Positions 37,904 to 63,171 of a stretch of DNA of 64,000 nucleotides are shown here, piece by piece. The DNA comes from Acidobacteriota bacterium (GTDB taxonomy: Bacteria; Acidobacteriota; Vicinamibacteria; Vicinamibacterales; SCN-69-37): assembly GCA_020853395.1 (NCBI GenBank), contig JADYYY010000010.1:124001-188000 (forward strand), given 5' to 3'. The notes beneath the pieces were generated by a model. The model was not told where the DNA came from. It ran no database searches and saw nothing but the letters and a program-made list of their open reading frames with translations. Position numbers and translations under genes: made by a program. How positions within the stretch are numbered: the stretch's first letter is position 1; each line of letters begins with the position of its first letter.

Positions 37904-38155
37904 TCACGTTGGAGCAGGCCCACGGCGGCACGTTTCGCAGCGGGCCCCACCACCTTTCTTTTCCAGCACCGCTTTCAGCGCCTGAATGTCCAGCGCCTGC
38001 TCAGCGACCACGTGCTTCAATCGCCGGCTCTCGTCTTCGAGCTGCTTCACCCGCTGCCGCTCGCTCAGCTCCAGACCGCCGTGTTTCGCTTTCCACCGGT
38101 AGTACGTCTGCTCGGTGATCCCGTACGCGCGTGCCAGGTCGGGCGACGGTACAAG
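37904..38155 (-). mobile_element. IS3-family transposase OrfA remnant
   Basis: Reading the minus strand gives about 83 codons closed by a stop at 37904, with no start codon and an in-frame stop at 38156-38158. The peptide contains ARAYGITEQTYYRWKAKHGG and a leucine-zipper-like coiled region ending with LEKKGGG. This is the DNA-binding and coiled-coil part of IS3-type OrfA. The N-terminal part and the whole of OrfB (integrase core) are missing, so the element is dead. I found no clear terminal repeats. Confidence 0.78.
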
Positions 38156-38186: not shown

Positions 38187-39665
38187 TCAGGCGTTGAACT
38201 TCCCCACATCGGCGCGGTACCGCCAGAGGTGGCTCTCGAAGCGGACGCCGTGCTTCCGAAGCACGTTGCGCACTTCGTCAGCCGCGCGGTTCATCTCGCC
38301 CTGGACCCGATAGGATTCCAGGTCGAAGTAGCAGCCGCCATAGCCTTCAGGGCATGGCCCGAATGCCGCCTGAACGATCGCAGAGCAATCGCCGGCCGGC
38401 CGGAGGCCGGTGTAGGCGGCCGATGCCGGATCCATGCCTGCCGCGCGCATCGCTTTCACGACTTCCGGCCAGACCCGCGCCCGCATGAGATGGTCCTTGG
38501 CGGCTGGGCTCAACTGGCCACGCACTGCCGTGATGGGCTTCGCCGGCACGCCGGCGACGATCGTGCGGGCCGGCACACGGCCCGTGATCAGGGAGTTGGC
38601 CAGGGCCTGCGAGCCGTCTTCCATCACGGTGCCGGGCGTGACGAGGCAGCCACCCGTGACCCAGACGTGGCGGCCGATCGTCACCGGTGCGAAGCTCGCC
38701 GTGTAGCCGTCCAGCACGTTCTGCCAATGGCTGTGCGTGTAGATCGAAACGCGAGGGCTGAGGCAACTGACGTCGCCGATCGTCACCGCGTGCGACGTGT
38801 TGATCAGACAATCGCTCGACACGAGACACGAATGCCCCACCGTCAGCGACGCCTCGGCGTTGAACGCGCCGCCCTGGCCGATCAGCACGCGGTTGACGAG
38901 AAACAGCATGTCGCCGAACCGGAGATGCCGGCACATGATGTCGTTGTCGTGGCCGAACAGACCGCCGACACCGACCACGAGCGACTCGGCCTGAATCACG
39001 GTGCGCGCGCCGAACCTACAGCCGCGCCCGACCTGGATGGAGGCGGCATAGATCGCCGCTCCCGGCTCGAACACCACATCGTCATCGACGAGCGCGCCGA
39101 ACTGGCGATAGAGGCGGACCTTGAGATCGCTCGCCAAGTCCGCGAACCCACTGCCCGGCTTGCGGATGTCGGCGAGGAATGCCGGATCGAGTATTCCGGT
39201 GGCGGCCGGAGTCGCGGCTATCGAGGCAGCAGCGGCGACCGGCGGCCGAACGGCGGGCTCGGCGTCTCGTGGCGGCGCCTCCACTCGCGCTACCCCCTCG
39301 ATTCGCGTTGACGGGTCCACGCGCGCCGGCGCCTCCACTCGTGTCGGCGCTTCCACTGGCGCCGCACCCTCGACTCGCGCCGACGCCCGCGGCAGCCCGG
39401 CGGACGGCGGACGGGCACCATCCGTCAACTGCCCGATTTCGGCGCCCACCGCCACGTCGTCACCTTCCGAGACCGCGAACCAGCAGTGCCCGTCAGCGGG
39501 AGACTCCACATCGAACGAGGCCTTCGTGGTCTCGATCACCGCGACGATGTCGCCGCGCGCGACGCGCTGACCAGGCTCGACGATGAGACGCGCCACGACG
39601 ACGACGTCGTCGTTGACGCTGACGCGCGGGACGAGAATCGGCGTGACCGGATTCGACGATGGCAT
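38187..39665 (-). CDS. Lipoyl-domain/left-handed beta-helix acyltransferase fusion
   Basis: The product is 492 residues. Residues about 8-82 form a biotinyl/lipoyl carrier domain with Lys48 in ETTKASFDV, placed as in lipoylated E2 proteins. Residues about 85-155 are a Pro/Ala/Val/Arg linker with a repeating RVEAP-like unit. Residues about 195-380 are hexapeptide repeats of an acyltransferase, with a likely catalytic His in YTHSHW and the usual VAGVPAKPI closing motif. A helical tail follows. Known sugar acyltransferases of this fold use acyl-CoA or acyl-ACP. A fused lipoyl arm suggests acyl-dihydrolipoamide as donor, which is inference. The next gene is a PIG-L deacetylase 18 bp upstream. Its lipoyl domain is closely similar to that at 61717-63126. 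Confidence 0.85.
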   Translation of the reverse strand: MPSSNPVTPILVPRVSVNDDVVVVARLIVEPGQRVARGDIVAVIETTKASFDVESPADGHCWFAVSEGDDVAVGAEIGQLTDGARPPSAGLPRASARVEGAAPVEAPTRVEAPARVDPSTRIEGVARVEAPPRDAEPAVRPPVAAAASIAATPAATGILDPAFLADIRKPGSGFADLASDLKVRLYRQFGALVDDDVVFEPGAAIYAASIQVGRGCRFGARTVIQAESLVVGVGGLFGHDNDIMCRHLRFGDMLFLVNRVLIGQGGAFNAEASLTVGHSCLVSSDCLINTSHAVTIGDVSCLSPRVSIYTHSHWQNVLDGYTASFAPVTIGRHVWVTGGCLVTPGTVMEDGSQALANSLITGRVPARTIVAGVPAKPITAVRGQLSPAAKDHLMRARVWPEVVKAMRAAGMDPASAAYTGLRPAGDCSAIVQAAFGPCPEGYGGCYFDLESYRVQGEMNRAADEVRNVLRKHGVRFESHLWRYRADVGKFNA

Positions 39666-39683: not shown

Positions 39684-40352
39684 TCAGCGCCAGTAGCTGC
39701 GCAGCAGGGAGAATGGCTCGGCGGCGGGCATCATCATGCACTGCCCCCAGTAGTGCGCCCGCAGCCGCAAGTGCTCGAGCGACCGCGGATGGGGTGGATC
39801 GGGCGTCTGGCTGACGTAGCAGCGCATCGCCTCGATCTTCGTATCGAGGTAGTCGCTGATGTCGACGAAGTGGTTCGGTGAGAAGTTGTACGGCACGCCC
39901 CACTCGGTCTCGCTCGGCGTTTCGTACGCGAAGATCTGACGGATCGATCGAACCTTGCAGCGGGCGCCGACGAGCGCCGCATCCTGCGCGAGCCGATGAT
40001 CGCGGTTGATGTCGCCGCGCCAGGGCACGTAGAGCACCGCCGGCTTCAACTCCTGCACGGCGCGCTCGATGGGCGCCGCGACGTCGACGAGCGACAGTTT
40101 GTCGAGCCCTTGGTCCGGCAACCCGACGAGCGTCCACGACGACAAGCCGAGCACTTCCGCCGAGGCGCGGCCTTCTCGCGACAGGAAATCGTCCGTCGCA
40201 TCGGGATACCGCAGGCTCATCGCCTCACACAGCACGAGCGCGTGCACCTCGTCGCCCGCGGCGACATGCCGGGCGAGCGTACCGCCCAGGCCGAGCACCT
40301 CGTCATCGGGATGCGCGGCGACAACGAGCACGGGTCCAGCGGGCATGGTCAT
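39684..40352 (-). CDS. PIG-L (LmbE)-family de-N-acetylase
   Basis: The product is 222 residues with the zinc motif AAHPDDEVLG (residues about 11-20) and a later INRDHRLAQD His. Members remove N-acetyl groups from GlcNAc-type sugars or related glycosides. It is directly upstream of the lipoyl-acyltransferase fusion in the same transcript. A de-acetylation followed by re-acylation of an amino sugar is therefore plausible. ATG 40352 is used; another in-frame ATG is at 40346. Confidence 0.9.
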   Translation of the reverse strand: MTMPAGPVLVVAAHPDDEVLGLGGTLARHVAAGDEVHALVLCEAMSLRYPDATDDFLSREGRASAEVLGLSSWTLVGLPDQGLDKLSLVDVAAPIERAVQELKPAVLYVPWRGDINRDHRLAQDAALVGARCKVRSIRQIFAYETPSETEWGVPYNFSPNHFVDISDYLDTKIEAMRCYVSQTPDPPHPRSLEHLRLRAHYWGQCMMMPAAEPFSLLRSYWR

Positions 40353-47960: not shown

Positions 47961-48231
47961 GATGGCAGCCCTCGTACTGCGTCATGGGAACGTGTCTCAA
48001 GTCCGATGCCAATGCTGACGAACATGTCACGTCGATCAACTAGCCTGCGGCGCGGTCACGCCGCGATGACGGCGATGCCGGACCTCGGCGGCGCTTACAA
48101 AGTTGGGTGCCGGCAGACAGATCTGCGCCGCGGTTGCGCGGCGATCCGGCCGCTGCACTGGGGCGGTTCTGGACTACACTAACCTCGACGTTCTGCAGCC
48201 GATCGTCAGCACCCACACTTCACGGTCCCGG

Positions 48232-49290
48232 ATGCCGCCCACCGACGCGCAGCAGATCTTCCAGAGTCCCGGTCGCTGCGCAGTCATCGGCGAGGTGGCG
48301 CAGACGCACGATGGCAGCCTCGGGCTCGCCCACGCGTTCATCGACGCGATCGCTGCGGCGGGCGCCGACGCGGTCAAGTTCCAGACGCACATCGCGTCGG
48401 CCGAGAGCACGATCGACGAGCCGTGGCGCGTGCGATTCAGCCTGCAGGACGAGACGCGCTACGCCTACTGGCGCCGCATGGAGTTCTCCGAGACGGCATG
48501 GGCCGGTCTCGCAGCCCACGCGCGGGAGCGCGGCCTCGCCTTCATCAGCTCGCCCTTCTCGATTGCCGCGGTGGACCTGCTCGCGCGGATCGGGGTCGAT
48601 GCCTGGAAGATCGCGTCCGGAGAGGTCACGCATCACGCGCTGCTCGATCGACTGGCGCGTACGCCGGCCCCGGTCCTGCTCTCGTCCGGGCTGTCGACCG
48701 TCGACGAACTGGGGGCGGCGGTGCACCGGCTGCGCGGCCACGGGTTGCCCGTCACGGTGCTGCAGACGACGTCCGAGTACCCCTGTCCGCCTGAGCGCGT
48801 CGGGTTGAATCTGCTCGCGGAGTACCGCGAGCGCTTCGGCTGTCCGGTCGGTCTCTCCGATCATTCCGGCGCCATCTACGCCGGGCTGGCGGCCGTCACG
48901 CTCGGCGCCGCCGTGCTCGAAGTCCACGTGACGCTCAGCCGCGAGATGTTCGGCCCCGACGTGCCCGCATCCATCACGACCGCCGAACTGCGATCGCTCG
49001 TCGACGGCACGCGGCAGATCGAACGGATGCTCGCGCACCCCGTCGACAAGGACGCCGCCGCCGCGCGCCTCGCCGGCATGCGCGCGCTCTTCACGCGCAG
49101 CATCGCGCTCGTGGAGGATCTGCCGGCCGGCGCGATCCTCGCCTCCGAGCATCTGACGCTGAAGAAGCCCGGGACCGGCCTGCCGGCCGACGGGCTCTCT
49201 GCGCTCGTGGGACGCCGGCTCCGGCACGCGGTGCCGGCGCATCGCCTCCTGCAGGAATCCGATCTCGAACCGGGAGCTGCCCTCGTATGA
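48232..49290 (+). CDS. neuB: N-acetylneuraminate synthase-family protein
   Basis: The product is 352 residues. A TIM-barrel NeuB domain shows IGEVAQTHDGSLGLAHAFID, AVKFQTH, KIASGEVTHHALL, the GLSDHSGAIYAG segment and VHVTLSREMFGPD. A C-terminal SAF (antifreeze-like) domain follows from about residue 290. It joins an N-acetyl-hexosamine to phosphoenolpyruvate to make a nonulosonic acid. Whether the product is neuraminic, legionaminic or another acid cannot be told from sequence. ATG 48232 is used since homology begins shortly after it. It overlaps neuC by 4 bp. Confidence 0.92.
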   Translation: MPPTDAQQIFQSPGRCAVIGEVAQTHDGSLGLAHAFIDAIAAAGADAVKFQTHIASAESTIDEPWRVRFSLQDETRYAYWRRMEFSETAWAGLAAHARERGLAFISSPFSIAAVDLLARIGVDAWKIASGEVTHHALLDRLARTPAPVLLSSGLSTVDELGAAVHRLRGHGLPVTVLQTTSEYPCPPERVGLNLLAEYRERFGCPVGLSDHSGAIYAGLAAVTLGAAVLEVHVTLSREMFGPDVPASITTAELRSLVDGTRQIERMLAHPVDKDAAAARLAGMRALFTRSIALVEDLPAGAILASEHLTLKKPGTGLPADGLSALVGRRLRHAVPAHRLLQESDLEPGAALV

Positions 49291-50444
49291 AGCGACGTGT
49301 GTGTGTGGTCGTGACGGCGCGTCCGAGCTACAGCCGCATCAAGACAGCCTTGCGGGCGATTGCCGCCCACCCCGATCTCGAGCTCCAGCTCGTCGTCGCC
49401 GCCTCCGCGCTGCTCGACCGCTATGGCGACGTGTCGAAGCTGATCGAAGCCGACGGCTTCCGCGTCGACGCGCGCGTCTTCATCGTGCTCGAAGGCGAGA
49501 CGCCGACCGCGATGGCCAAGAGCACGGGGCTGGGCCTGCTCGAGCTGGCCACCGTGTTCGACAACCTCCGGCCGCACGTCGTGGTCTCCGTGGCGGATCG
49601 CTATGAGACGCTCGCCACGGCCGTGGCCGCCGCCTACATGAACATCCCCGTCGCCCACGTTCAGGGCGGCGAAGTCACCGGCTCGATCGACGAGAAGGTC
49701 CGCCACGCCGTCACCAAGCTCGCCGACGTTCACCTCGTCTCGTGCGAGCCGGCGGCTGCCCGCGTCGTCCGCATGGGCGAAGAGCCCGGCACCGTGCACG
49801 TGACCGGCTGTCCGTCGATCGACATCGCGATGGAGATGCTCCAGAACCCGCAGATCGACTTCGAGCCGGTCGCCCGGTACGGCGGCGTCGGCGCGCCGCT
49901 CGATCTCGCCGCCCCCTACGTCGTCGTCATGCAGCACCCGGTGACGACCGAGTACGACGACGCGCGCCATCAGGTGCTCGAAACGCTTCATGCGGTCAAC
50001 GGATCCGACATGCCGGCGCTCTGGTTCTGGCCCAACGTCGATGCTGGATCCGACGGCACGTCCGGCGGCATCCGGGCGTTTCGCGAAGAGCAGCGTCCCG
50101 CGCACATCCGGTTCTTCAAGAACATGTCGCCGGTCGACTTCCTGAAGGTGCTCTACAACTGCCGGTGCCTCATCGGCAACTCGAGCGTCGGCATCCGCGA
50201 GTGCTCGTTTCTCGGCGTGCCGGTCATCAACATCGGCAGCCGTCAGAGCGGCCGCGATCGCGGCCGGAACGTGATCGACGTCGACTACGATCGCCATGCG
50301 ATCAGCGACGCGCTTGCCACGCATCTCGCGAACGGCGGCCGCTATCCCTCGGATCCCCTGTACGGCACCGGCCGTGCCGGGGAACGGATCGCGGACTGCC
50401 TCGCTGCCACGCAACTGACCTCCAGCAAGCGCCTGACGTACTGA
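49287..50444 (+). CDS. neuC: UDP-N-acetylglucosamine 2-epimerase (hydrolysing), NeuC/LegG type
   Basis: The product is 385 residues with a GT-B-like fold. The N terminus shows VTARPSYSRIKTAL. HVQGGEVTGSIDEKVRHAVTKL and NSSVGIRECSFLGVPVINIGSRQ supply the catalytic Asp/Glu/His pattern of hydrolysing epimerases. It releases ManNAc (or a 6-deoxy analogue) for NeuB. Coupled to neuB by ATGA overlap. Confidence 0.93.
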   Translation: MKRRVCVVVTARPSYSRIKTALRAIAAHPDLELQLVVAASALLDRYGDVSKLIEADGFRVDARVFIVLEGETPTAMAKSTGLGLLELATVFDNLRPHVVVSVADRYETLATAVAAAYMNIPVAHVQGGEVTGSIDEKVRHAVTKLADVHLVSCEPAAARVVRMGEEPGTVHVTGCPSIDIAMEMLQNPQIDFEPVARYGGVGAPLDLAAPYVVVMQHPVTTEYDDARHQVLETLHAVNGSDMPALWFWPNVDAGSDGTSGGIRAFREEQRPAHIRFFKNMSPVDFLKVLYNCRCLIGNSSVGIRECSFLGVPVINIGSRQSGRDRGRNVIDVDYDRHAISDALATHLANGGRYPSDPLYGTGRAGERIADCLAATQLTSSKRLTY

Positions 50445-54430: not shown

Positions 54431-55129
54431 TCAGCGCTCCCGCCTCGCCCGCAGCACGCGTGCGGCATCGACGAGGTCGGCCTCGGAATCGATGTTCACC
54501 GCCGAGTCGGCATCGACCTCAAGGCCCAACAACCGGCGGCCATAGAGCGTGCCGGCACGTAGGCAGTCGACCCGCGTCACGTACACGGACCCGGCGCGGT
54601 GATACGCCGGCGGCAACGCCTGGCGGCGCGCGATGGGTGCCGCCTCGCCGGTCGACAACCGCAACGAGCCGTCGTCGCCGCGGAAGTACACCCAGTGCGG
54701 GTTGTACTCGACGGGCACCGGCCTGACGGTCACGACGGCGTCCGCGGCCTCGGCATCGAGCAAGCGAACGCATGCGTCGATTTGCGCGGCCGTCACGCAA
54801 GGGCTCGTCGGCTGCAGCAGGCAGACCGCGTCGAACCGGTCGCCGCCTGCCTCGAGCACGTCGAGCGCGTGCTGGATGACCGGCAGCGTCGGCGTGTCGT
54901 CACGGCCCAGATCGGCTGGCCGGCGAAACGGCACTTCGATCCCGCACCCGCTCGCCACCGCCGCGATCTCCTCGTCGTCGGTGCTGACGATGATGCGCGC
55001 GAGGGTGGCCGCCGCAGACGCTGCTGCCGCGACGTAGGACAAGAGCGGGCGGCCCTCGAGCGATCGCACGTTCTTCCTCGGGACGCCCTTGGACCCGCCG
55101 CGTGCCGGAATCAGGCCGAGCACGCGCAC
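54431..55129 (-). CDS. neuA: CMP-nonulosonate cytidylyltransferase (NeuA-like)
   Basis: The product is 232 residues, the usual size for CMP-sialic acid synthetases. It begins with a GTG right after the upstream stop. The nucleotide loop LIPARGGSKGVPRKN, the LLQPTSPCVT motif and the VDADSAVNIDSEADL metal region are intact. It activates the NeuB product with CTP for a glycosyltransferase. It lies in the long minus-strand operon, while neuB-neuC are on the plus strand several kb away. Confidence 0.92.
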   Translation of the reverse strand: MRVLGLIPARGGSKGVPRKNVRSLEGRPLLSYVAAAASAAATLARIIVSTDDEEIAAVASGCGIEVPFRRPADLGRDDTPTLPVIQHALDVLEAGGDRFDAVCLLQPTSPCVTAAQIDACVRLLDAEAADAVVTVRPVPVEYNPHWVYFRGDDGSLRLSTGEAAPIARRQALPPAYHRAGSVYVTRVDCLRAGTLYGRRLLGLEVDADSAVNIDSEADLVDAARVLRARRER

Positions 55130-55130
55130 G

Positions 55131-56462
55131 TCAGCCGGCCACCGCAGCGTCGGTCTGTCCGATCCGCGCCGACCATCCGAAGAACATCCGATCCTGCTCG
55201 TCTCGCAGCTCGTCGATGAGCCGGCCCGCCGGCAGCTCGACGTCCTCGTACGTGAGGACCTCGTCCTTGGCCACGTCACGGGTGAGGCGCCCGCCTTCGG
55301 CCACGCCGATGGGCAACAGCCGCCGCGCGTGCGTCACGTCGGCGTTCTCGCACAACCCGTAGGTCGCGTACCCTCCGAGACCGTCGAGTTCCTCCCCGGT
55401 CCTGAGGTCCCGCTTCGCCGCAGTCACGACATCCACGCGCGGCCCATGGTCGGGGGCGATGATGACGTCGCGATACAGCGCGACCCGCGCGACCGAGATC
55501 GGCACTTCCAGGGCCGTCAGGTGATAGGGCACGTAGAAGCTGTAGAGCGGGCCCTGGCCGAGCTTGCCGTAATCCAGATACACGCGCTGGATGTCGTCCT
55601 GGCGTTCGGCGAACACGAAGACCCCCGGGCTCGGTGCCGCACCGACCACGTAGTCGACGATGCCGCCGAGCGCACGCAGCTCGTCGACGTCGAACTTGCC
55701 GGTGAGCTCGTCGACGTGCCCGGTGTGCTCGAGACCGAGCATGCCGCGGCGCGCCACGCACATGCCCGTCGCATTGGCCACGATGGCCTGCTCGAACGAG
55801 ATCTTGGTGCCGTCCGCGAAGCTCGTGACCATGTGGGGGGTCTGCCCCCACCGCGCGGCGAATCCTGCCTGCGTCGTGGGCGTCCGATACCGGTCCTGCA
55901 GCCCCTTGATGTTGCCGCACACCAACGGCCGCAGGCCGAGACCGCGGACGAACCGGACGAGGTTGAGCTGGACGCCCGGCTGATCGCCATCACATCCCGT
56001 GACGATCACGTCGGCCCGATCCGCGTGGACTTTGAGCAGCGGACCGACGGTGCCGTCGACTTCGGCGTTCATCAGGATCAGGTCCTTGCCACGCCGAATG
56101 GACTCGAGCGCGAACGACGCGCCGAACGGCACGGCGCCGGTGGCGTCGACGAGGATGTCGAGGGACTCGGCCGCTGTCAGGAGCCGCGCGTCCGACGTGA
56201 TCCCGCAGGCGCCGCTCGCGATCGCGTCGTCGAGATCGGCCGTTGTCTCGGCGACGCGGACGTCGGTCAGCCCCGCCTCGCGACACGCGCGCGCGGCTCG
56301 ATCGATCTCGCGGCTGAACACGGCCGAAATCCGGAGGCCGGGCGAGTAGTTGGCGAGCTGGTTGACGATCCCGCGCCCCATGAATCCCGCGCCGGCCAAT
56401 CCCACCCGTACCGGTTTGCCGGCCACCGCCCGCGCCTTCAGTGCCGTGTCCACGATCATCAT
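55131..56462 (-). CDS. SAF-domain NAD(P)-dependent oxidoreductase (homoserine dehydrogenase-like)
   Basis: The product is 443 residues. A Rossmann motif VGLAGAGFMGRGIVNQ is followed by a homoserine-dehydrogenase-like domain (CDGDQPGVQLNLVRFV). A C-terminal SAF domain ends with YEDVELPAGRLIDELRDEQD. Members of this family recur in O-antigen loci with rfbF and rfbC and are thought to act in unusual CDP-sugar synthesis, but no reaction is established to my knowledge. The ATGATGA start overlaps the rfbC stop by 4 bp. Confidence 0.82.
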   Translation of the reverse strand: MMIVDTALKARAVAGKPVRVGLAGAGFMGRGIVNQLANYSPGLRISAVFSREIDRAARACREAGLTDVRVAETTADLDDAIASGACGITSDARLLTAAESLDILVDATGAVPFGASFALESIRRGKDLILMNAEVDGTVGPLLKVHADRADVIVTGCDGDQPGVQLNLVRFVRGLGLRPLVCGNIKGLQDRYRTPTTQAGFAARWGQTPHMVTSFADGTKISFEQAIVANATGMCVARRGMLGLEHTGHVDELTGKFDVDELRALGGIVDYVVGAAPSPGVFVFAERQDDIQRVYLDYGKLGQGPLYSFYVPYHLTALEVPISVARVALYRDVIIAPDHGPRVDVVTAAKRDLRTGEELDGLGGYATYGLCENADVTHARRLLPIGVAEGGRLTRDVAKDEVLTYEDVELPAGRLIDELRDEQDRMFFGWSARIGQTDAAVAG

Positions 56463-58948: not shown

Positions 58949-59680
58949 TCACGATCCGCCGACGCGCCGATCCATCGGCGCCTCCGTCTGTGCCGTGCCC
59001 GCCAGTTGCCGGAATCCGATGACGCGGGCCGGCGTACCGGCCGCAATGGCGTACGGCGGCACGTCGCGCATCACCACCGAGCCGGCCGCCACGACGGCCC
59101 CCGTCCCGATGGTCACGCCGGACAAGACCGTCACGTTCGTGCCGAGCCATGCCTCCTCACCGATCGTGATGTCCCCTTTCGTCACGAGAGGCTGCCGGCG
59201 GATCGGGACCTCGGGCGCGATGCCGTGGTCATAGGGATACAACGCACAGCCGTAGGCCAGGCTCGCGCCGCGTCCGATGTGAATGGAGCCCTTGTACGCC
59301 ATGAGCTGACACCGGGCGTGCACGGACACGTCGTCGGCGATCCCGATTGTCCCGTTCTCGCCCGTCTCGATGAACGACTCGCGATAGAGCTGCACGCGGT
59401 CTCCGATCGTGATTTCGCCCGAACCGTCCCGCGAGAAGATCACGACGCCCTCGGCGATGAAGGTGTGCCGTCCGCGATGACACCTCGGGTGATGGATCGT
59501 GGCACGCGGCGAGATGAAGCCGCCGGAACTGAGCCGCGCCAACTCGTTCTGCGCGCGATGCGGCGGCGCTGCCCAGCTCGCCACACGCATCGCGATCCGG
59601 CCGAGGCCGCGATCACCCGCCAGTCGCATCCACACCCGCATCCACAGCCGGCGCGGTTCACGCAGCGATCGCGCGGTCAT
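58949..59680 (-). CDS. Left-handed beta-helix sugar acyltransferase
   Basis: The product is 243 residues: a basic N terminus, then hexapeptide repeats (about 60-220) with GEITIGDRVQL, GCALYPYDHGIAPE (catalytic His region) and AAGTPARVIG at the end. It resembles WbbJ/maltose O-acetyltransferase-type enzymes that use acyl-CoA. ATG 59680 follows the ATPase stop by 19 bp. It is a conventional counterpart to the lipoyl-fused acyltransferase at 38187-39665. Confidence 0.9.
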   Translation of the reverse strand: MTARSLREPRRLWMRVWMRLAGDRGLGRIAMRVASWAAPPHRAQNELARLSSGGFISPRATIHHPRCHRGRHTFIAEGVVIFSRDGSGEITIGDRVQLYRESFIETGENGTIGIADDVSVHARCQLMAYKGSIHIGRGASLAYGCALYPYDHGIAPEVPIRRQPLVTKGDITIGEEAWLGTNVTVLSGVTIGTGAVVAAGSVVMRDVPPYAIAAGTPARVIGFRQLAGTAQTEAPMDRRVGGS

Positions 59681-59699
59681 CCCCACGATCTCGTCCGCC

Positions 59700-61028
<1,329 letters not shown>

Positions 61029-61036
61029 GGCGCGAG

Positions 61037-61720
61037 TCAGCGACCAGCCGTCGACGACGGCAGAACGACGACGGCCGCTGCGAGCGCTGCCGTGCGCGTC
61101 AGGCTGACGGCGTGCGGCAAGCGGCACGGCTGCGGCGGCGTCACGTGGTCCAGCCACGGACGCCCGCTTTCGTCGAGGCTGACCTGCAGGGCGCGAGGGT
61201 CCTCCCCCAGGAAGCGGGGATCGCACTTCTTCAGCGCCTCCTTCGCGCACCACCGCGCCGCGAAATGCCCACGCGGCTCTTCCTGCCTCGCGCAATAGCC
61301 GATCTCGGCCGCCGTGAAATGCGCCTGGTAGAACTCGTGCGTCCAGAAGTCGTCCGCCGACGGCATCGCCTCCACCAGCTCGATGTCGAGCCCAACCAGC
61401 AGGTCGTGCGTGCTCGTCGGATCGACTGGTGCGACGCGCATCGGCGCGGCGTCCGATAGCGGCCCAGGCTCCGCCGCGGAGGACGTGGACGGCGGTTCGC
61501 CGAACAGCGCCGCTTCGAGCTCACCGAACGTGGCCGCAGCCACGGCAGCCGACGAGTACACCCCGAGACGGCGTCGAATGGCGGCGAGCAGCAGGCCGCG
61601 GCCCGCCGAGCCGCGCAGCCGCGGGTGGCGCAGCGAGAAGTCCCGGCCGATCTGCTCGGCCGGCACTCCGTACATCTGCGCGACGATGCTTCGCAGCGTC
61701 ACGGTGTCCGTGCGGCTCAT
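61037..61720 (-). CDS. ACP-like/AcpS-type phosphopantetheinyl transferase fusion
   Basis: The product is 227 residues. Residues about 5-72 look like an acyl carrier domain: IVAQMYGVPAEQIGRDFSL then LRGSAGRGLLLAAIRRRLGV, with Ser38 at the place of the phosphopantetheine Ser but without the usual DSL. Residues about 105-220 match AcpS: Asp112 in GLDIELVE, FTAAEIGYC and RWCAKEALKK (Glu161, Lys165). The late SxxH motif is SLTRT, so the His is replaced. The ATG overlaps the stop of the E2-like gene by 4 bp, indicating coupled translation. I know of no characterised protein with this architecture in a glycan locus. The AcpS part is a confident call; the carrier part is moderate. Confidence 0.78.
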   Translation of the reverse strand: MSRTDTVTLRSIVAQMYGVPAEQIGRDFSLRHPRLRGSAGRGLLLAAIRRRLGVYSSAAVAAATFGELEAALFGEPPSTSSAAEPGPLSDAAPMRVAPVDPTSTHDLLVGLDIELVEAMPSADDFWTHEFYQAHFTAAEIGYCARQEEPRGHFAARWCAKEALKKCDPRFLGEDPRALQVSLDESGRPWLDHVTPPQPCRLPHAVSLTRTAALAAAVVVLPSSTAGR

Positions 61721-63126
61721 GCGTACCAGTCCTGCAGGCAGACGGTGCACACGAGCTGTTCGGCACGGCCCGCGGCCGCGACCGCTCGCACCAGGAAGTG
61801 CCGCGTTTCCTCGAGCTCGTCGATGCTTCGCAGGCACAGCGCACATTCCGGCTCTGCCTTGGGCGGATCGGCGGTGATTCTTTTCGGAAGGCTCTGCTCG
61901 TGGCCGGCCAGCCGGTCTCGAAGTTCCTCGAGAAACGCCGTCGCCGACCGCCCGTCGGCCACCTGATGATCGAACCGCAGCACGAGATTGAAGATCTGGC
62001 TCCCCGGCGCGGGCGCGCACACACCGAGCACGGCCGACTGCCGCTCGCTCAGTACCGGCTGAACGTGCACGGCGCCCGTTGCCGAAAGATCCGTAATCGT
62101 GAACGTCGCTTCCGACAGGGCTCCCGGCGCCAGCGACTCGTCGAGGTAATCCATGATCAACTGCTGTTTCTCATCGAGGATCTGACGAACCGACTTCCGA
62201 TCCGCCTCCTTGATGACGACGACCTTGAGGCCAAGGCCAAGGTCGACGGCGTAGCCGATATTGACGGCGCCGTACTGGTAGCAGGTGCCAGCGCTGTAGT
62301 AGGCATTGAGCCCCGGGTACCTCGACAGCAGCCGGGCACTTTCGAAGATCAGCGTGGCCGCGAACACTCCCGGAGCGCCGTCTTCCTCTGCGCTGAAGAG
62401 ACGACCGTCGGTCGGCACCGGCACGGTCACCGAACTGGGAATCGTGTGCGAGTACGCGGCACGGATCTGATCGCCTTCGACGCGCTTGGCCCGGGGCAGG
62501 GGGACGGGAGTCACGCCGGCATGACCTCCGGCGCCGTTCGAGAGCGCCCCACCCGGTGAAGGCTCGATCACCTGCGCGGCCGGCCGCCGATCATCGTGCG
62601 CGGCAGCGTGCAGAAGCACGTCGCGCTCCCGAACGAGGAGCCGCCCTTCGAAGGCCCGAACGTCCACCGACAGCCGCTGCGCCACATCGGCTGCCCGCTC
62701 GCTGAACCGCGGTGCTCGACCGGGCGTTGCGCCGATCCGCAACGCCGGCTCGTCCCGGCCGCGCTCGCACGCCCTGCCGTCGTCGGCCGCCATCGACGCC
62801 GGTTCCGATGCTGTCGACGTACGAGCGGGCGGCTCGCTGCACACACGGTCGGGTCGCGACAGCGCCGCGGCTTGCGTCGACTCCGCATCAGGCCCGATGT
62901 GGCACAGCACCGCATCCACCGGGACGTCGTCGCCCTGCGCGGCGACACGCCAAACGACGCCGGACGCGGGCGCCGGCACATCGAAGGACGTCTTGGTCGT
63001 CTCGAGCACGACGAGCGGCGCACCGGCTTCGATGAAGTCGCCATCGTTGACGAGCCACTCGACGACGGCAACCGACGAGTCGTTCACTGATTCCACGGGA
63101 GGCCGCACCGGGACGATGTCAGACAT
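61717..63126 (-). CDS. E2-type (2-oxoacid dehydrogenase) lipoyl acyltransferase with four-Cys C-terminal tail
   Basis: The product is 469 residues. The lipoyl domain (about 1-78) has Lys45 in ETTKTSFDV. A peripheral-subunit-binding-like segment lies at about 138-172 (RFSERAADVAQRL...RERDV). The catalytic domain (about 215-410) has TFTITDLS and the active site FDHQVADG with His387 and Asp391. Residues about 426-466 add CALC and CTVC pairs, probably a zinc ribbon, which classical E2 proteins lack. It should move acyl groups between dihydrolipoamide and CoA or another thiol. E1 and E3 genes are not seen here. GGAGGT precedes ATG 63126. Confidence 0.88.
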   Translation of the reverse strand: MSDIVPVRPPVESVNDSSVAVVEWLVNDGDFIEAGAPLVVLETTKTSFDVPAPASGVVWRVAAQGDDVPVDAVLCHIGPDAESTQAAALSRPDRVCSEPPARTSTASEPASMAADDGRACERGRDEPALRIGATPGRAPRFSERAADVAQRLSVDVRAFEGRLLVRERDVLLHAAAHDDRRPAAQVIEPSPGGALSNGAGGHAGVTPVPLPRAKRVEGDQIRAAYSHTIPSSVTVPVPTDGRLFSAEEDGAPGVFAATLIFESARLLSRYPGLNAYYSAGTCYQYGAVNIGYAVDLGLGLKVVVIKEADRKSVRQILDEKQQLIMDYLDESLAPGALSEATFTITDLSATGAVHVQPVLSERQSAVLGVCAPAPGSQIFNLVLRFDHQVADGRSATAFLEELRDRLAGHEQSLPKRITADPPKAEPECALCLRSIDELEETRHFLVRAVAAAGRAEQLVCTVCLQDWYA

Positions 63127-63171
63127 GACCACCTCCGGCTGTCGTTCTTCTGTGAGGCCGGGTGGGACGTC

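Follow-up and report, generated by a model that had tools for sequence, protein, structure and literature searches.

The 64,000-nucleotide stretch of an Acidobacteriota genome analysed here (the window) encodes a lipoyl domain joined by a Pro/Ala-rich linker to a left-handed beta-helix (LbH) acyltransferase. We propose that this fusion is an E2-like component that carries an LbH sugar acyltransferase in exchange for the usual catalytic domain, and that it would pass an acyl group from lipoamide straight to an amino sugar. We put the probability of this reading at roughly 0.6. By the usual view, sugar acyltransferases work with CoA or acyl-ACP, and E2 proteins acylate CoA. Fusions of this kind are rare near the window but recur elsewhere. 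A literature search by titles and abstract openings, in which subscription journals are thinly covered, returned no description of a lipoyl-hexapeptide fusion, and an earlier one may exist. The term lipoylation in PMC4875605 denotes fatty acid chains and is unrelated to the lipoyl domain.

Table 1. Features of the fusion gene and of the E1-containing region. Coordinates are window positions except those prefixed L003, a locus that extends past the window end (window position = L003 position + 61000).
Feature	Position	Strand	Basis
Lipoyl - Pro/Ala linker - LbH acyltransferase fusion	38187..39665	(-)	ORF, ATG start, 492 aa
Lipoyl domain, aa 8-82	39420..39644	(-)	Pfam PF00364; pLDDT mostly 88-98
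Lys48 codon, presumed lipoylation site in ETTK (IETTKAS)	39522..39524	(-)	equivalent Lys in 30/30 fusions
Pro/Ala-rich linker, aa 85-160, without PSBD-like segment	39186..39413	(-)	pLDDT; own HMM
LbH acyltransferase domain, aa 191-384	38514..39095	(-)	NCBIfam, AlphaFold, structure comparison
C-terminal extension, aa 385-492, common to type A fusions	38190..38513	(-)	alignments; low-confidence model
PIG-L family de-N-acetylase	39684..40352	(-)	PF02585, E 2.7e-21
Free-standing LbH acyltransferase near carrier-linked set	58949..59920	(-)	Hexapep, 9.4e-11
Carrier-like N-terminal part + phosphopantetheinyl transferase (PPTase)	61037..61720	(-)	PPTase: PF01648, 5.6e-12
Lipoyl-E2, usual catalytic domain, motif DHQVADG intact	61717..63132	(-)	PF00198, 1.7e-26; PF00364, 2e-12
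Second lipoyl-E2, beside E1, just beyond window end; DHxxxDG reads DARIVSG	L003:3530-4864	(-)	
Fused E1 alpha-beta protein, pyruvate-dehydrogenase-like	L003:4854-7010		E1_dh, 5.2e-43; Transket_pyr, 1.1e-24

The first-pass annotation had placed a lipoyl domain with an ETTK motif at about residues 8-82. Pfam agrees: Biotin_lipoyl (PF00364) matches residues 11-78 with an E value of 4.1e-8 and 33.4 bits against a cut-off of 22.1, and Lys48 lies within ETTK. Against the 18 closest members of its family the domain reaches scores above 120; against six other lipoyl or biotinyl domains of its own genome they are only 33-79. By these scores it belongs to the cluster's own subfamily and not with the other lipoyl or biotinyl domains of the genome, three of which carry an AMK motif. 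The annotated Pro/Ala-rich linker to an LbH acyltransferase also holds up. In the AlphaFold model, confidence is mostly 77-95 over LbH residues 191-380, with some weaker stretches, and mostly below 50 over linker residues 98-159 (below 50 at 98-102 and 108-159); the linker is predicted to be disordered. Foldseek and VIA-align confirmed the left-handed beta-helix fold with Z up to 17.6, the value at which residues 250-382 align with 3nz2, an acetyl-CoA-bound hexapeptide acetyltransferase (rmsd 3.0 over 116 residues).

NCBIfam models of the WcaF family match residues 273-379 at 5.5e-15, under their equivalog cut-offs, and the scores for the curated WcaF and maltose O-acetyltransferase models stay below threshold (55.5 against 192 bits, 47.5 against 314 and 35.3 against 326.3). 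Maltose acetyltransferase chains match the protein at 5e-12, and it may be read as an O-acyltransferase of the maltose type. A Pfam search with this single protein returned no match to Hexapep, to PglD_N or to the E2 catalytic domain (PF00198) with its DHxxxDG motif.

The stop codon of the PIG-L gene lies 18 bp upstream of the fusion gene start on the same strand. The 3' end of the gene is immediately followed by a fragment that by eye resembles the first ORF of an IS3-type transposase (37920-38143(-)). The same contig encodes, about 26 kb from the fusion, an E1 whose sequence is closest to those of pyruvate and branched-chain E1 enzymes. This E1 is accompanied by two lipoyl-E2 proteins and the carrier/PPTase protein. 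In a search of its own genome, the fusion shares 36% identity over residues 6-114 with the lipoyl-E2 that has an intact catalytic motif, and the two lipoyl domains fall in the same subfamily. Since DHxxxDG is replaced in the second lipoyl-E2, this protein probably lacks transferase activity. Pfam does not recognise the carrier part of the carrier/PPTase protein, in which one serine is shared by all 25 aligned proteins, namely the window protein and homologues encoded next to lipoyl-E2 genes. With its own PPTase attached, such a carrier-like domain beside E1 and E2 may constitute a self-priming carrier module.

The region also contains ABC exporter genes, a CapD-like dehydratase and a DegT aminotransferase, and we interpret it as a surface-polysaccharide region that has a pyruvate-dehydrogenase-like set of its own. 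NeuB, UDP-GlcNAc 2-epimerase and cytidylyltransferase genes at 48103-50444(+) and 54431-55279(-) form a nonulosonic (sialic-like) acid set. The polysaccharide region further encodes an FkbH-domain protein (L003:12996-14675(-), TIGR01686 1.4e-85), adjoined by a small protein that matches DltC-like sequences weakly; FkbH enzymes produce glyceryl carriers. LipA, LipB and two E3 proteins, all scoring over cut-off, are encoded elsewhere in the genome.

Relatives of the fusion are scarce in the neighbourhood of its host. A scan of genome contigs with the window fusion as query gave 75 matching stretches, none of them a relative, and at E 1e-25 no relative of the complete fusion was found in the other 148 of 149 genomes searched in the order. 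Among 396 genomes of the phylum, four others match the C-terminal half of the protein: two encode fusions (G365 and G191) and two encode proteins without the lipoyl part (G364 and G093). The two phylum fusions come from one genus and align with the entire window fusion, showing 32 and 29% identity. In both, the gene order is E1alpha, E1beta, fusion and then one further gene common to both loci. This last gene, which has no Pfam match, was classed by eye with the polysaccharide deacetylases and served as one seed of the deacetylase HMM used in the neighbour counts below.

Since the contig scan with the fusion itself gave no relative, we took E1 as the anchor of a wider survey. A contig scan with an alignment of three E1beta sequences (A1), two of which stem from fusion loci, returned at least 560 stretches encoding a relative. 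We retained the best 80 (loci L028-L107), a sample biased both by this selection and by the fusion-weighted query, and surveyed them with HMMs built from the proteins already collected. These best 80 of at least 560 loci span many phyla. They contain 27 lipoyl-LbH fusions and 42 lipoyl-E2 proteins with the usual catalytic domain. In the remaining 11, which were left out of the comparisons of E2 with fusion loci, the lipoyl gene was cut by a contig end or masked before the acyltransferase part (five loci) or no lipoyl gene was found (six loci). By record title, fusions occur in Planctomycetota, Acidobacteria, Bacteroidetes, Anaerolineae, Gemmatimonadetes and Bacillota, among others. In all 27 fusion loci among these best 80, the fusion gene lies downstream of E1beta on the same strand, mostly directly: 25 fusions start no more than about 250 bp from the E1beta match, and one gene intervenes in the other two (L093 and L102). 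We consider the fusion more than a chance event, as the window protein can be aligned over its full extent with two proteins found independently and the same layout is seen in 27 of 80 E1-linked loci.

Two further observations came from the survey. The six loci without a lipoyl gene nearby (L054, L061, L063, L069, L071 and L084) contain a lone fused E1, and by record title all belong to Planctomycetota or Phycisphaerae; five of them form one starred clade on the E1 tree. At L082:10999-18174, the lipoyl-E2 is part of a single open frame of 2392 codons, perhaps a synthase fusion.

Together with the window protein and the two phylum relatives, the survey yields 30 fusions, 28 of which are covered by alignment A3. 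The first-pass annotation had suggested a search for Biotin_lipoyl plus Hexapep in other genomes; in 28 fusions examined with Pfam, Biotin_lipoyl matches 28, Hexapep 27 and PglD_N 16. Poor conservation of the lipoyl domain in orthologues, which the same annotation would have taken as refuting, was not seen: all 30 fusions retain the motif E-[ST]-[STA]-K with its lysine. Neither the lipoyl Glu nor the Lys varies among the 28 aligned sequences, and both are present in the other two. The acyltransferase parts fall into three types. Type A (n = 5: the window fusion, L024, L025, L031 and L098) has a maltose-acetyltransferase-like helix followed by a C-terminal extension, type B (n = 9) has a WcaF-like LbH, and type C (n = 16), which includes the L077 fusion of the cultured Neolewinella marina, contains a PglD_N domain. 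His311, the candidate catalytic residue of the window LbH domain, is kept in all 14 fusions of types A and B. For two type C members, comparison with solved structures gave the sugar N-acetyltransferases PerB, PglB, PglD and VioB as matches, and the PerB histidine mutated in deposited structures (His141) aligns with a histidine conserved in type C. The GxPA[KRH] motif of free relatives, whose position we take to be the CoA site, is kept in types A and B, the window fusion included, but GxPA is lost in all 16 type C fusions and kept in two free relatives from the same loci.

A segment of about 40 residues between the lipoyl and acyltransferase parts, which we call PSBD-like, occurs in the fusions other than the window's and in nearly all lipoyl-E2 proteins of the family. 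An HMM built from 27 other fusions matched most lipoyl-E2 proteins and did not match the window fusion. Since the Pfam PSBD model (E3_binding) matched none of 28 fusions, the name is based on our own HMM and on position. Kinship of the segment to canonical PSBD is weak: of two canonical E2 proteins, one matched the HMM at E 0.02. A regular-expression search for the segment matched only two of 30 fusions.

The neighbours of fusion and E2 genes differ. Our E2 catalytic HMM matched none of the 30 fusion proteins and no ORF across the 27 fusion loci. The carrier and deacetylase counts were restricted to loci with at least 1 kb downstream, which dropped two of 42 E2 loci and three of 27 fusion loci. 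Of the 40 E2 loci that remain, 30 have a carrier/PPTase gene no more than 1.5 kb from the lipoyl gene, as against none of the 24 fusion loci (Fisher p 8e-10, for loci that are not independent). Conversely, an amine-making gene, defined as a deacetylase within 2 kb or a DegT aminotransferase within 5 kb, accompanies 16 of 24 fusions but only 3 of 40 E2 proteins. Where a locus extends at least 4 kb upstream, a separate LbH gene occurs within 5 kb in 19 of 36 E2 cases, compared with 4 of 24 fusion cases. Phylogenetically independent pairs point in the same direction, although at 3 to 6 pairs they are too few for significance. In these loci the fusion takes the place of both the E2 catalytic domain and the carrier-protein gene.

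On a quick E1beta tree, at least six changes separate fusion and E2 states. Type A sits in three places, and the clade of the window E1 otherwise consists of E2 users. Among the fusions, the window copy is the least typical: it has no PSBD-like segment, it lies about 26 kb from E1, and its E1 belongs to an E2-type clade. At locus L099, an E1 (E1_dh, Transket_pyr) is followed by a type C fusion (lipoyl-PglD_N-Hexapep), a lipoate ligase (PF21948, 2.6e-53) and an E3-like Pyr_redox_2 protein. This fusion occupies the place of E2, with its own lipoylating enzyme adjoining. A ligase of this type was found in no other locus of the best 80 of at least 560.

The fusions share features with several known systems. 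Like the dihydrolipoamide acyltransferase (E2) of 2-oxoacid dehydrogenase complexes, they combine an N-terminal lipoyl domain, a flexible linker and a C-terminal acyltransferase with an E1 nearby, and the relatives of the window copy, though not this copy itself, carry the PSBD-like segment at the right place. In contrast to E2, they have neither PF00198 nor DHxxxDG, and the acyltransferase is an LbH of the sugar-acylating type. Type C resembles the sugar N-acetyltransferases PglD, PglB-ATD, PerB and VioB in its PglD_N domain, beta-helix and catalytic histidine (the equivalent of PerB His141), but is fused to lipoyl and PSBD-like segments, has no GxPA tail in 16 of 16 cases and stands beside an E1. 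The window protein and type B share the beta-helix fold, the conserved histidine and the GxPA[KRH] tail with WcaF and with maltose and galactoside acetyltransferases; unlike these, they have a lipoyl arm, and the window protein scores under all curated cut-offs and bears a C-terminal extension.

A likeness of role links these loci to NapB/NapD of naphthyridinomycin biosynthesis, in which a ketose supplies a two-carbon unit that is moved to a carrier protein. There too an E1-like enzyme serves biosynthesis, and the E2-type neighbours of the present E1 family mostly adjoin a carrier-like protein. The NapB/NapD acceptor, however, is a carrier for peptide assembly, and that system has no beta-helix fusion. 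Since homologues of NapB/NapD are reported, in PMC7570522, to take the two-carbon unit from xylulose 5-phosphate, glycolyl is one possible identity of the acyl group.

From this we infer how the fusion may work. The thiamine-dependent E1 would reductively acylate the lipoyl group on Lys48. The lipoyl arm would then swing on its linker, predicted to be disordered, into the LbH active site, where the acyl group would be moved onto a sugar, most likely onto an amino group that the adjacent PIG-L deacetylase would have exposed. Finally, E3 would reoxidise dihydrolipoamide. The E1 family would be wired in two ways. In one, E1 would load a lipoyl-E2, from which the acyl group would reach a carrier protein and then a separate LbH enzyme; in the other, the LbH enzyme would itself be the E2 and move the acyl group from the lipoyl arm onto an amine supplied by a deacetylase or aminotransferase. 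Two wirings for one purpose are the simplest account of the data. The first-pass annotation had deduced direct use of acyl-dihydrolipoamide from the built-in lipoyl arm. Overall this idea is supported in part. Comparison speaks well for it through the conserved lysine (30 of 30), the dedicated E1 beside the fusion in 27 of the best 80 of at least 560 loci, the replacement of the E2 domain and carrier gene, and the ligase and E3 of L099. It is weakened by GxPA in types A and B and, for the window protein, by the distance to E1 and the missing PSBD-like segment.

A different reading, which we consider unlikely, limits the lipoyl domain to channelling: it would dock on E1 and be acylated, an E2 domain elsewhere would move the acyl group to CoA, and the LbH domain would be an ordinary acyl-CoA enzyme that gains from nearness. 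Many CoA complexes are indeed among the closest solved relatives of the LbH domain, GxPA persists in types A and B, and the window region encodes both an intact and a degenerate E2. Yet no ORF in the 27 fusion loci matches the E2 catalytic HMM, and type C has lost the motif that two free relatives of the same loci retain. The catalytic histidine also speaks against channelling; since it is retained, the fused LbH domain is probably an enzyme. Given the fate of GxPA in the three types, a CoA-dependent reaction is less unlikely for the window fusion than for type C.

The proposed exchange of catalytic domains could also hold for the family elsewhere while the window copy is stray or decaying, with no working E1 partner. 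The missing PSBD-like segment, the 26 kb to E1, the lack of close relatives in the 149 genomes searched in the order and the IS3-like fragment directly behind the gene would all fit such a history. Against it, the 492-residue frame is open with a coding-like base composition, the lipoyl motif and His311 are intact, the gene is tightly paired with the PIG-L gene, and the lipoyl domain is of the cluster's own subfamily. On balance we regard decay as less probable still than channelling. That the carrier domain holds biotin instead of lipoate, or is a structural module, is very improbable: PF00364 also covers biotinyl domains, but all 30 fusions carry E[ST][STA]K, as opposed to AMK in three other PF00364 domains of the genome, and a lipoate ligase adjoins the fusion in L099.

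In its broadest form, to which we give about even odds, our proposal is that widespread CoA-free and carrier-free acylation machines exist. A biosynthetic E1 would load a lipoyl arm, the E2 catalytic domain would have been swapped several times for sugar N-acyltransferases, and acyl groups from a keto acid or ketose would be placed on amino sugars of cell-surface glycans. The window E1 might then feed two routes, one through lipoyl-E2 and carrier to a free acyltransferase and one through PIG-L and the fusion, the latter perhaps altering the N-acyl group of a nonulosonic acid. If true, a sugar-acylating, swapped E2 would add a new donor to the beta-helix fold and account for a set of gene clusters found across many phyla. 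It would also predict unusual lipoate-dependent N-acyl groups on surface glycans, and give a handle on what the E1 enzymes of these loci decarboxylate or cleave.
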